Source: Methanoculleus sp. (GTDB taxonomy: Archaea; Halobacteriota; Methanomicrobia; Methanomicrobiales; Methanoculleaceae). Taken from it: 64,000 nucleotides of DNA. The DNA is taken from positions 62,001-126,000 of the forward strand of contig NZ_JASEFJ010000003.1 in the NCBI RefSeq assembly GCF_030019085.1, given 5' to 3'. Both the position numbers and the translations under genes were made by a program. Positions 24,904 through 34,281 of the stretch are shown here, one piece after another (the stretch's first letter is position 1; every line of letters starts with the position of its first letter). A model generated the notes under the pieces. It made no database searches, was not told the DNA's origin, and saw nothing but the letters and a program-made list of their open reading frames with translations.

Positions 24904-25178
24904 GTTCCACGGATCGATCAGATATCAAGTGCTTATACTACTTTATACCGCATTCCACTGAGTTATCATCAGGGTGACGGCAAAACTCAACCCTTTACCA
25001 TACCACACCCACCATACCGGGAGATTGAGGCATGATGGCCCAGATCTCAGTAAGGCAGGTATCGATCGGTTCAGGCCCTGAACCCCCCTCTAGAATCAAA
25101 CCGGCCTCTATCTCCTTCTCATATCCTGTCTTTGAGGTTTTATCGTGCCGTAAATCCCGGACAAATGAGCAAGTAACT
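24904..25178. other. Non-coding stretch before repeat copy A
   Basis: About 275 bp with no credible gene. It ends where the long repeat begins at 25179 and has no counterpart at the other copy. Confidence 0.3.
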
Positions 25179-25983
25179 CCCTCCAGAACTACCTGGATCT
25201 TCAGCCTTAGTTGCCGTTAGATCCGCACTTCAAGGCTCAAAGATCGCTCTCCTTGTAAAATTACACTCGCTCTGTGGCCTGATATTAGATACTGATAGGT
25301 TAAAGCCAGAAACACGGGGAGAGACTCGGGAGAAGACCCATGCGTGGCCTTCCAGGGTGGTGGGGGTAGTCAGTGAATACTTTCCCGGTGACACGTCAAG
25401 ACAGGGGAAGGGGACGTGTCCCGTCCCCTCTCCCCGTCAGCCCCTCCCCAAAAGGGCGATACTCCATGGATACAGTGTAAGGGTGGGCCTCTCCAGCATC
25501 TGGGTGAAACCCTCCCTGGCACGGCCTTTCCTGCTATCGCCGTTCACTGCCCGCCCCCCCCCCCGAAGGGGTGGCGGTCAGCGAAGGTGGTTCGACCTGA
25601 GATGTAGGAGACAGGGGCGATTCTCCATCGATAAACTGCCCTGGAAGTTCTCCTGTGTCAACACAACCCCATCGCCGAGATCCTGTTTCTGCCCCCGCCC
25701 CACAGGGGGGTGGAGAAAGAGATCCTTCGCTTTATGTGGAGTTACTGAACCGTGGTGTTCCGGGAGCAGAATATCTGTCGCAATGCCCGGGTAGCTGAGG
25801 GTAGGGTTTCGCAAAGTGAGTTTAAACAGCCTATTTACGAGAATTGTGCTATTATTTCTGAATAATTGTAAAAATACCGCTGTTGTGAATGTACTTCTAG
25901 TAGGGGGTGACCATTACACCTGCCCTTAACCAGAAGACGAAGACTCAGAAGGTGGCTGATTGGTGAAATCTGGAGGTGGCTAA
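25179..25983. repeat. Long dispersed mosaic repeat, copy A
   Basis: About 805 bp that aligns in blocks with 33109-33829. Shared blocks include the left edge (from CCCTCCAGAACTACCTGGAT), CGTTAGATCCGCACTT, GGCTCAAAGATCGCTC, a GC-rich middle with GAGGTGGAGAAAG-like text, TTACTGAACCGTGG, GGAGCAGAATATCTGTCGC and a right block from AGTGAGTTTAAACAGCCTAT at about 25817. Within this copy a shorter unit (GGGGCGAT.CTCCAT.GATA) occurs twice, near 25454 and 25616, so it is a mosaic with internal duplication. No long frame is kept between copies. The region 25984-26032 before the flippase gene adds nothing recognisable. Confidence 0.85.
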
Positions 25984-30153: not shown

Positions 30154-31239
30154 ATGAAGATTGCATCGATCGTCGGCGCAAGGCCGCAGTTCATCAAGTG
30201 TGCACCGGTCTCCAGGGAGATCCGGAAGGACTACCAGGAGGTCCTCATCCATACGGGGCAACACTATGACCACGGGATGTCGGAGATCTTCTTTGAGGAA
30301 CTCGGCATCCCGAAACCCGACTACAACCTGGGGATTGGATCGGGGACGCACGGCCACCAGACCGGGGCGATGCTCGCAGCGATCGAGGACGTCCTGGAGA
30401 GAGAGGGGCCGGATGCGGTTATTGTCTACGGTGACACCAACTCTACCCTGGCGGGAGCGCTTGCGGCGGCAAAACTTCACATACCGGTGGCGCACGTGGA
30501 GGCCGGACTCAGGAGTTTTGACCGCCGGATGCCAGAGGAAGTGAACCGGGTGCTCACCGACCACTGCTCGGAGATCCTGTTCTGTCCAACAAAGACCGCG
30601 GTATCTAACCTTGCGGCCGAGGGGATCAGGAAGGGTGTATTTCTGGTGGGAGACGTCATGGTCGATGCCATGAACTACAACCGCGGGGTCGCGGAAGAAC
30701 GTTCCAGGATCCTGGAGAACGTGGGGGTCGAACCGGGGGACTATCTGGTGGTCACCGTCCACCGGCCATCAAACACCGACAGAAGGGATAGTATGGCCGC
30801 CATACTCGGTGCGCTGGGGGATGTCGAGAGACCTGTTGTCTTCCCGGTCCACCCCCGGACACGGAAGTTCCTGGATGAATACGGTCTCCTCGCGAAGATA
30901 CCCGCGAACGTCATTCTGACCGAACCGCTCGGTTACCTTGATATGATCAGGCTGATGGCCCATGCGGAGAAGATCCTGACCGACTCCGGCGGCATCCAGA
31001 AGGAGGCCTACCTGCTCGGCGTACCCTGCATCACCCTCCGGGAGAATACCGAATGGGTTGAGACGGTCGAGAGCGGATGGAACGTGCTTGTCGGTGCCGA
31101 ACGGGATCGGGTTTTGGATGCTGTTTTGCATTTCTCACCGACGGTGCGACAGAAAAACCTCTTTGGCGAGGGGAATGCCAGCCTTCTGATCAGGAAGTTT
31201 CTCGGCAGGTACCTGGACACCAACCAGCGCCGGTTGTGA
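30154..31239 (+). CDS. wecB: UDP-N-acetylglucosamine 2-epimerase (second copy)
   Basis: 361 residues with the same architecture as the copy at 7990-9072 but clearly diverged. Motifs: IVGARPQFIKCAPVSREI, VIVYGDTNSTLAGALAAAK, HVEAGLRSFDRRMPEEVNR, VTVHRPSNTDRRDS and LTDSGGIQKEAYLLGVPCIT. Being 4 bp behind wecC, this is the copy most likely dedicated to UDP-ManNAcA. A candidate decayed right end of a TnpB element begins right after its stop. Confidence 0.95.
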   Translation: MKIASIVGARPQFIKCAPVSREIRKDYQEVLIHTGQHYDHGMSEIFFEELGIPKPDYNLGIGSGTHGHQTGAMLAAIEDVLEREGPDAVIVYGDTNSTLAGALAAAKLHIPVAHVEAGLRSFDRRMPEEVNRVLTDHCSEILFCPTKTAVSNLAAEGIRKGVFLVGDVMVDAMNYNRGVAEERSRILENVGVEPGDYLVVTVHRPSNTDRRDSMAAILGALGDVERPVVFPVHPRTRKFLDEYGLLAKIPANVILTEPLGYLDMIRLMAHAEKILTDSGGIQKEAYLLGVPCITLRENTEWVETVESGWNVLVGAERDRVLDAVLHFSPTVRQKNLFGEGNASLLIRKFLGRYLDTNQRRL

Positions 31240-31725
31240 GTGGTAAGTTACTGCTCCCCTCTCGTCGGGGTATCCCGGGATACTACCCCTGGGATTGCAG
31301 CCCAAATCCCATAATATTGATCGCCGCGTATCTCTGTCCCGATCCATAGATAACCCACGGTGCGGGCAGGAGTGGACACGGTTAGAGAGCGTATTGGCGA
31401 CGATCATGTCACATCTGGAAACACTGCCATGATGTATTCCCTGGGTTCACGAGGATCAGACGAGAACCAGCCTCTTTTGCTCTGGTCTCTGCGATCGTGA
31501 TGAACAGATTCCAGGCGACATCGACAATGTTTTTTGCCAGATGATGGTTTTTATGCATGTTTTTGATCTTCAGATCCTCAAACACGATCGTGCCGAACCG
31601 ATCCACCAACTGCCGGGAGATCTGATGAGCAAAATCGAACTTACGGCTCGCGATCCGTTCGTGGACGCGTGCGACAACCTCTCTGGCTTTCTTACGTTCA
31701 GGAGTTTGCCGATCTTCCTTCTTTT
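31240..31725 (-). pseudogene. tnpB: Fragment of IS200/IS605-family TnpB (OrfB)
   Basis: The minus-strand frame 31409-31725 keeps the centre of TnpB: VVARVHERIASRKFDFAHQ, the Glu-bearing IVFEDLKIKNM of the RuvC site, AKNIVDVAWNLF, and SRLILVNPGNTSWQC before the zinc ribbon. About 200 N-terminal residues and the CxxC ribbon with the last catalytic Asp are gone. On its 5' side it runs straight into the 73-bp repeat at 31726-31798. On the 3' side, next to wecB, the minus strand has CCCCGACGAGGGG followed by AGCAGTAACTTAC, which may be a degenerate right end. It is not functional as a nuclease. Confidence 0.75.
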
Positions 31726-31798
31726 CTTTCGTATGAAAATGACCCCCGATTTTCATCCGGTGTGCCTGTAGCTCTAACGGGCATCATGTAGTTTTTTG
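31726..31798. repeat. 73-bp palindromic repeat, copy 1
   Basis: Matches 47928-48000 at 67 of 73 positions by eye. It contains ATGAAAAT and ATTTTCAT separated by GACCCCCG, a perfect 8-bp stem here. Hairpins of this kind mark the ends of IS200/IS605 elements, and this copy directly abuts the TnpB fragment, so it may be that element's end. Confidence 0.8.
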
Positions 31799-32200: not shown

Positions 32201-32938
32201 TTAATCCTCCGACTCCCTGGCCTCGTCAGCCTCAGCGGTCCCGATCTCTTCCGTCTCCTGTTGTGATTCAGTCGAGGGCTGGCGAGTAAACGTCTCCTTC
32301 ATGACGACTTCGTTGACCTCAGGGTAGTATTCGAAGATCTGGCTGATCAGACTTCCCCGCCACATCATCCAGCGCCGATCATAGATGATATCCTGAGGCA
32401 GCGCGAGCTCGACCGTTCCATCGGTGATCCTGACATTGATATCGCTCCGGCGGGCGAAGATCTTGATGAGACCCCTGATCTGCTCCAGCTGATCGTCGAC
32501 CTTCTCGAGGATGCTGTAGGTGTAGTGCACGCTCTTTCCTGCGAAGGGGTGGTTAAAGTCGACGACCGCGCGCCTCCCTATGACGTTGGTGACAATACCC
32601 TCGCGGCCTTCGATGCTGACCCGCATCCCGGGTTCGGGCTTCTCGCGGAACTGCGTGATCGGGAAAGAGGCCACCTCGCTCTCGTCGTGCTCTCCGAACG
32701 CCTTCTCGGGCGGGATCTCAACCTCTCCTTCCGTGCCAACCTCCTTTCCGATCAGTTCCTCTTCAAGACCGCTAAGGATGTGGTGGCTTCCAAGGCGGAT
32801 GGTTATCGGGCCGTATTCCGCCATTTGATTGTAGATACCCTCTTCCTTTGCAATCTCCTCATCTGTGGTATCAAAAACGTCCCCACCGATACGGCCGGTG
32901 TAGCTGATCCTGACAAAATCTCCTTCCTGAAGTGCCAT
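32201..32938 (-). CDS. FKBP-type peptidyl-prolyl isomerase, archaeal long form
   Basis: 245 residues from the ATG at 32938; the longer frame to 33034 starts in a low-quality region. The FKBP domain (LQEGDFVRISYTGRIGGDVF, GSHHILSGLEEELIGKEVG) is interrupted by the SlyD-like insert-in-flap (FPITQFREKPEPGMRVSIEG). DFNHPFAGKSVHYTYSILE closes the domain. A C-terminal domain of ~90 residues follows (GLIKIFARRSDINVRITDG), as in methanogen FKBP26-type chaperone isomerases, ending in an acidic tail (ETEEIGTAEADEARESED). It assists folding in the cytoplasm. Confidence 0.92.
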   Translation of the reverse strand: MALQEGDFVRISYTGRIGGDVFDTTDEEIAKEEGIYNQMAEYGPITIRLGSHHILSGLEEELIGKEVGTEGEVEIPPEKAFGEHDESEVASFPITQFREKPEPGMRVSIEGREGIVTNVIGRRAVVDFNHPFAGKSVHYTYSILEKVDDQLEQIRGLIKIFARRSDINVRITDGTVELALPQDIIYDRRWMMWRGSLISQIFEYYPEVNEVVMKETFTRQPSTESQQETEEIGTAEADEARESED

Positions 32939-33108
32939 TTTCCATTCACCATGGTTAGTTAGTGCACAGCAATCTCCTGTACGGCGTTTGCGCACAGGTT
33001 CACCGAGCACCTCTATCAAGTTGTTCCATTTCATTAGGATGGAATGGTATATATACTGTCTACCAGCCTGCCCGTGGTCATAAGCACCCGGAATAACAGG
33101 ATCTAGCC

Positions 33109-33829
33109 CCCTCCAGAACTACCTGGATCTTCAGCCTATTTTGCCGTTAGATCCGCACTTAAAGGCTCAAAGATCGCTCCCCTTGCAAAAGTAAACTCGC
33201 TCTGAGGCCTGATACCAGATCCTGGTAGTTTAAAACCAGAAACACGAGAGAGGCGCTGGAGAAGACACATGCACGGCCATCCCTGCTATCGCCACGCACT
33301 GCCCGCCCCTCGGAAGGGGGCGGGAGGAGGCGCGGAACGCGCCGGGAGGTGTGGGTGATCTGCATGCCGGAAAAGAGTGCCCGGTAACAAGTCAAGACAT
33401 GGGAAAGAGGCGTTCCGCCCCACCGTCAGCCCCTCCCCACGGGGGCGATTCTCCATTGATACAGTGTCCCGGTGTGCATCCAGAGTATCACGGCGAGACC
33501 ATCCATGGCACGGCCTTCCCTGGCAATCACCCCGTAATCCCCTCACCCCCGAGGAGGTGGAGAAAGCGAACCTTTGCTTATGTGAAGTTACTGAACCGTG
33601 GGGCTCCGGGAGCAGAATATCTGTCGCGATGCTCAGGCAGGTGAGGCTAAGGTCTCGCAAAGTGAGTTTAAACAGCCTATTTACGAGGATTGTGCTATTA
33701 TTTCTGAACAATTGTAAAAATACCGCTATTGTGGATGTACTTCTGGTAGGGGGACCATTACAACTGGCGTTAACCAGAATACGGAGACTCAAAAAGTGGC
33801 TGAATAGTGAGATCTGGAGGAGGCTAAAC
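33109..33829. repeat. Long dispersed mosaic repeat, copy B
   Basis: About 720 bp, the second copy of the repeat at 25179-25983. Both outer blocks are well kept (left ~130 bp and right ~180 bp), while the middle is rearranged: a CTGCTATCGCC...GCCCGCCCCT block lies early here but late in copy A. Differences in the right block are mostly single substitutions plus a 2-bp indel after GTAGGGGG. A 179-codon plus-strand frame crosses this copy (from 33377), but it is not kept in copy A. Confidence 0.85.
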
Positions 33830-34281
33830 AGTATGAAATCGTTCTTAGAACCACCGGCCAGCAGGGTGAGGATGGGTGTGGAGATAGCACCGTGGAAACC
33901 ATTCATGGTGATGTGAGAAGCCAGATGAACCCGGCAAGGCGATTTGTTTTGTAGCAGTGTACCGTGGGAGAAGGTAATTCCCCATTCCTCTCGCTGCATG
34001 GTTCCAGTGACCGGGTTATCCATCGTATGGTGGAAGAACCCCGCCCCCAGGCCCGCCGGCGCGTCCCCCCTTCCGCCCTTTCCGCCAGGGGCAAATGGAG
34101 TTCTTGCTTTTAAGGAGTCTTTCATCCTGAATCGGAGAGAGACGCTCCCATTTCTCGCATTGGACGGCCTGGAGAATTGTCCGGCCATTCAGGGTGCGCC
34201 TTCGCCAGGGTTCAATCGCCAGGAACACCCCATCGGCAGGGGTTTATCACCGATCCAGATAGACGATCTGATGCGAGAGTT
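33830..34281. other. Gap between repeat B and the CYTH gene
   Basis: About 450 bp with no credible gene. GGGTTTATCACC near 34241-34252 lies about 30-40 bp before the ATG of the CYTH gene and could be its TATA box. A GC-rich run (CCCGCCCCCAGGCCCGCCGG) lies near 34043. Confidence 0.35.

Follow-up and report, generated by a model that had tools for sequence, protein, structure and literature searches.

Two related elements in intergenic DNA

Two copies of a long repeat were aligned in the window, the 64-kb stretch of Methanoculleus DNA analysed here, and the alignment bears out the sequence-only reading in that the outer blocks are conserved and the GC-rich middles variable. Borders that are abrupt across the aligned copies of the family correct the limits to 25174-25982 (copy A, 809 bp) and 33104-33826 (copy B, 723 bp). 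Both copies are intergenic and run on the plus strand, as do the parts described below. Each is interpreted as a whole non-autonomous element, in which two insertion sequence (IS) ends enclose a repeat that we call M, itself made of a left arm, a right arm and GC-rich hairpin modules of two kinds, a and b.

Copy A begins with the left IS end (25174-25307, with its terminal inverted repeat (TIR) at 25174-25187 and an inner inverted motif at 25259-25268), which matches the family consensus at 92% over 25179-25307. The left arm of M follows (25305-25349, lacking 43 bp relative to the long form), and then come module b (25399-25478), module a (25518-25598) and the right arm (25709-25820). A segment of 53 bp, J (25821-25873), separates M from the right IS end (25874-25982, inner inverted motif 25887-25896, TIR 25969-25982), which contains a relic of a transposase C-terminus. 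Shorter units had been described as duplicated inside copy A; a partial second module b is indeed present at 25611-25644, but a repeat search detected no ungapped family with a length of at least 14 bp.

Copy B has the same parts. Its left IS end (33104-33237, inner motif 33189-33198) carries a perfect TIR, TAGCCCCCTCCAGA, at 33104-33117 and is 96% identical to the consensus. Inside it are the left arm of M (33236-33278), module a (33271-33357), module b (33395-33472), the right arm (33556-33666), segment J (33667-33719) and the right IS end with the transposase relic (33720-33826, inner motif 33733-33742, TIR 33813-33826). The element is bounded by a target duplication, AACAGGATC on the left (33095-33103) and AACAGTATG on the right (33827-33835), in which seven of nine bases match. 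Segment J is conserved across the family and resembles neither the IS nor M. Between the two copies, on the minus strand at 31135-31756, a by-eye reading of translations recognises a frameshifted fragment of a tnpB-like (IS200/IS605) gene. As read from the sequence, a TATA-like stretch, GGTATATATAC (region 33046-33103), precedes a minus-strand ORF (32201-33034); copy B is situated upstream of it at a distance of a few dozen bases and may affect the promoter of that ORF.

The family in its own genome

Searching the genome to which the window belongs (1.91 Mb in 59 contigs) by blastn with the repeat gave 73 pieces, and profile searches of the loci examined resolved 21 left ends, 16 distinct right ends and nine two-ended copies, numbers that exclude a chance likeness of two copies. 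One-ended copies account for about half of the family ends. The two-ended copies span 281-965 bp, and seven of the nine exceed 700 bp. Sharp boundaries are found throughout, with abrupt borders in the alignments of 20 left ends and of 16 own-genome right ends; the left end starts TAGCCCCCTCCAGAACTACCTGGATCTTCAGCC... and the right end finishes ...GTGGCTGAATGGTGAAATCTGGAGGAGGCTA. Two one-ended copies (L060 and L062) have lost the right IS end, with a break that falls nearly exactly where M meets segment J.

The family has a 14-bp TIR, TAGCCYCCTCCAGA, for which the left end of the consensus and the reverse-complemented right end share 13 of their 14 outermost bases. Within the window this 14-mer occurs, allowing up to two mismatches, at four sites only, which are the four ends of copies A and B, so the earlier statement that there were no obvious terminal inverted repeats does not hold. 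An inner motif, AAGTACACTC, lies in mirrored orientation at depths of 86 and 85 nt in the consensus ends and is also present in ends of the autonomous type. Target duplications are of 9 bp. Among the nine two-ended copies they are exact in two (TCTGTTTTA and TCCTGTATT) and match at seven of nine positions in four more, copy B included, while the flanks of copy A show no recognisable duplication. When left and right flanks were permuted, 1 in 20,000 permutations was as good as the observed set. TA was considered at first as a 2-bp target duplication, but the 9-bp duplication outside it fits better. Nine joined flanks, searched in relatives for a precise empty site, returned only gene matches and no continuous empty site, as intergenic DNA is too diverged between the species.

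The partner insertion sequence

Neither the ORF list nor a Pfam scan, which covered two ORFs and the frame relic, revealed a transposase gene or domain inside the element. The earlier reading saw no transposase; one is encoded elsewhere in the same genome, next to a left end of the same kind. The right block is the relic of the last ~30 codons of such a gene, ...VLLVGVTITPGVNQKTKTQKVAEW*, and matches the transposase C-terminus, with a frame broken by frameshifts in both copies. It had been suggested that third-position differences in this block might be a trace of coding, and this trace is the transposase relic; the statement that no gene explains the repeat does not hold. The C-terminal relic protein has relatives in other Methanoculleus and in further families of the same order. 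In genome G031 a full homologue (397 aa) carries the DDE_Tnp_1 domain (PF01609, E 1.3e-18).

Near the end of own-genome contig C33 (locus L147), the left end of the family stands before a transposase ORF that opens with MKSPLIIDPEDKKW and whose N-terminus is 51% identical to the G031 homologue over 101 residues. The same left end precedes the transposase gene in L192 as it does in L147, and it does so in Candidatus Methanoculleus thermohydrogenotrophicum (G020). Contig C7 (L148) finishes with the matching right IS end. A scan of the genome contigs that used the transposase alignment turned up a single relative. No intact autonomous copy is assembled in one piece in the own genome, as the contigs break within the IS; breaks at C33 and C7 are expected since the IS is repeated. 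The autonomous-type right end on C7 (G000, L148:2602-2708, at the contig end) lies within a tnpB gene, just upstream of the SVGIDVGLDSF motif, and this locus is one mobile element inside another. The G031 homologue scores far below every cut-off of the NCBIfam IS5, IS1182, IS4 and ISNCY models, and by these models the partner IS is assigned to no named family.

Repeat M across Methanoculleus

The left arm of M reads ATGTGTATCATCTGCGTTGTTGGCGG... and the right arm ...CTTCGCTTTATGTGGAGTTACTGAACCG...GGTCTCGCAAAGTGAG; between them lie the two kinds of GC-rich hairpin module in varying number. In the own genome the M arms almost always adjoin at least one IS end, and in other Methanoculleus genomes, namely G006, G014, G002, G050, G019 and G043, they occur without IS ends. 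Module matches number at least 50 in each of five Methanoculleus genomes (for example, 56 in G002 and 54 in G019), and at least 91 matches to the module pair are found in G023. The latter genome also has tandem arrays of GC-rich hairpin units of 266-274 bp (L096:2906-3895 and L105:1961-3038) with no IS ends nearby. With copy A as query, the 16 genomes that represent other genera of the order gave no match, the repeat was unmatched in plasmid and phage collections, and Pfam yielded no match for the ORFs tested in the middle. At one locus of G006 (L191:3480-3870), M lies between copies of an 18-bp direct repeat, CGCAACGAAGAGTTAGCG, and is also bordered by inverted repeats TTATCCACA / TGTGGATAA, an arrangement that may reflect mobility of M itself. 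The papers searched contain no description of a Methanoculleus hairpin repeat family and nothing linking Methanoculleus with miniature inverted repeats, and the genus is absent from a survey of REPs in archaea.

Covariation, one of the checks proposed earlier, was found in module a, which keeps its pairing through compensatory change. Paired bases occupy 92.8% of its cells, and both sides have changed in 38 cells against 11.0 in shuffles, a value reached by none of 500 shuffles; slid controls are far lower. The shuffles preserve column make-up and ignore relatedness, so this is strong support for covariation rather than proof of it. Stem variants of module a include GGCCGC-GGA-GCGGCC, GGCGCG-GAA-CGCGCC and GGCGCT-GAA-AGCGCC. 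Module b also has several stem variants, and its stems contain G-T and A-C mismatches in equal number (20 each), which means that no RNA strand is favoured. Above the gathering threshold, Rfam recognises only a tRNA in the window, and its matches to the G023 array are all sub-threshold.

Comparison with known systems

Non-autonomous IS derivatives are common, in archaea as elsewhere (PMC3852290, PMC10969869). Like these and like MITEs, the family lacks a transposase, shares its ends with a resident IS, has TIRs and target duplications, and is multicopy. It differs from typical MITEs, which are AT-rich and under 500 bp, a typical value rather than a strict criterion (PMC10969869), in being mostly 720-965 bp long and in having a GC-rich interior that is a captured foreign repeat. 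The partner resembles the IS4/IS5 superfamily in its PF01609 transposase, TIRs and 9-bp target duplication, although the transposase falls below all of the NCBIfam cut-offs named above.

The inner modules are similar to REP/BIME sequences, being GC-rich multicopy hairpins with conserved pairing that are often clustered, but they are ~80-90 bp long, sit in units of ~270 bp and are restricted to the genus among the genomes searched. G002 and G019 are rich in modules and have no Y1 (RAYT-type) transposase, and on this ground M does not qualify as a REP with RAYT; G000 and G023 have three Y1 matches each, an assignment to the Y1 class that does not imply the RAYT type.

Mobile insertion cassettes consist of IS ends around cargo other than a transposase. 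The present family is comparable in that its IS ends carry a passenger in the place of the transposase, but here the passenger is a non-coding repeat and not a gene.

Origin of the family

Copies A and B are very probably old copies of a non-autonomous, MITE-like though unusually long derivative of the resident IS, with M captured as its middle and with copying carried out by the IS transposase in trans. The observations behind this reading are the shared ends, the TIRs, the mirrored inner motif, the target duplications, a partner with the same ends and a transposase, and M without IS ends in other genomes. Of the possibilities raised earlier it corresponds to the non-autonomous mobile element, which is now backed by TIRs, target duplications of 9 bp and a resident partner IS. 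In an ancestor of this Methanoculleus, the transposase gene between the IS ends would have been exchanged for the hairpin-rich, genus-wide repeat M. Of the IS ends, the composite would have retained ~135 bp on the left and 108 bp on the right, stretches that hold the TIRs and the inner inverted motif, probably a transposase binding place. The IS transposase, acting in trans, would then have copied it into intergenic sites, making the 9-bp target duplications, and later loss, gain or exchange of GC-rich modules would have followed. Identity to the consensus is nearly the same for the left end (92.0%), left arm (90.6%), right arm (92.1%), segment J (92.5%) and right end (92.4%), and since the IS ends have diverged as far as the M arms, there was probably a single capture, after which the composite was amplified. 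The inner modules are at 84-87% identity to the consensus, and their variation in number and order explains why the middles look shuffled. The mobility proposed is past copying, read from the sequences of the copies.

Another reading makes M itself a mobile element, inserted with an 8-bp duplication at AGTTTAAA into a short IS-derived MITE, of which the 281-bp copy L086 would be the unfilled form. We consider this unlikely. AGTTTAAA does flank the middle on either side, and it occurs a single time in L086, in which the left end joins the right end directly; M occurs without IS ends in other species; and the right end of M, TCGCAAAGTGAG, mirrors CTCACTTTGCGA, found to the left of M in G006. However, L086 is equally well explained as a deletion between two AGTTTAAA repeats, M within the family has no left terminal motif of its own, and the IS left end of L147 extends past TTAAAACCG as far as the transposase gene, placing the left junction beyond AGTTTAAA.

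The abundance of modules in five Methanoculleus genomes, the covarying hairpins of module a and the stem variants of module b would also suit genes for structured non-coding RNAs, or regulatory repeats rich in hairpins, with incidental IS-like ends. This seems very improbable given that no Rfam family reaches threshold, that the mismatches of module b give no sign of an RNA strand, that the modules vary in number, and that the family is bounded by IS ends and their target duplications. The remaining suggestion, a decayed protein-coding gene family, drew on the right-block frame with its third-position differences and is scarcely credible: no conserved intact ORF was seen across the copies, no Pfam family matches the ORFs tested in the middle, and the frame itself, with its frameshifts in A and B, belongs to the end of the IS transposase, an origin that excludes a separate gene family.

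Significance

Under the derivation from the resident IS, the mobile-element part is of a known kind, and the novelty lies in the capture and in the hairpin repeat that spans the genus. The family is new as far as the sources searched show; it is longer and more GC-rich than typical and has a structured repeat in place of a transposase. A bolder proposal, which we regard as rather doubtful, is that M is a selected, genus-specific structured repeat with its own means of multiplication that escaped into the IS by displacing the transposase. If so, its role would be in chromosome organisation, at mRNA 3' ends or as non-coding RNA, and an IS would now be spreading a host repeat. The analysis accounts for several contig breaks in the present assembly, and it turns a mosaic repeat into a readable history of IS ends, a captured repeat of the host genus and copying by the IS transposase, bringing to light a large hairpin-repeat family in Methanoculleus.
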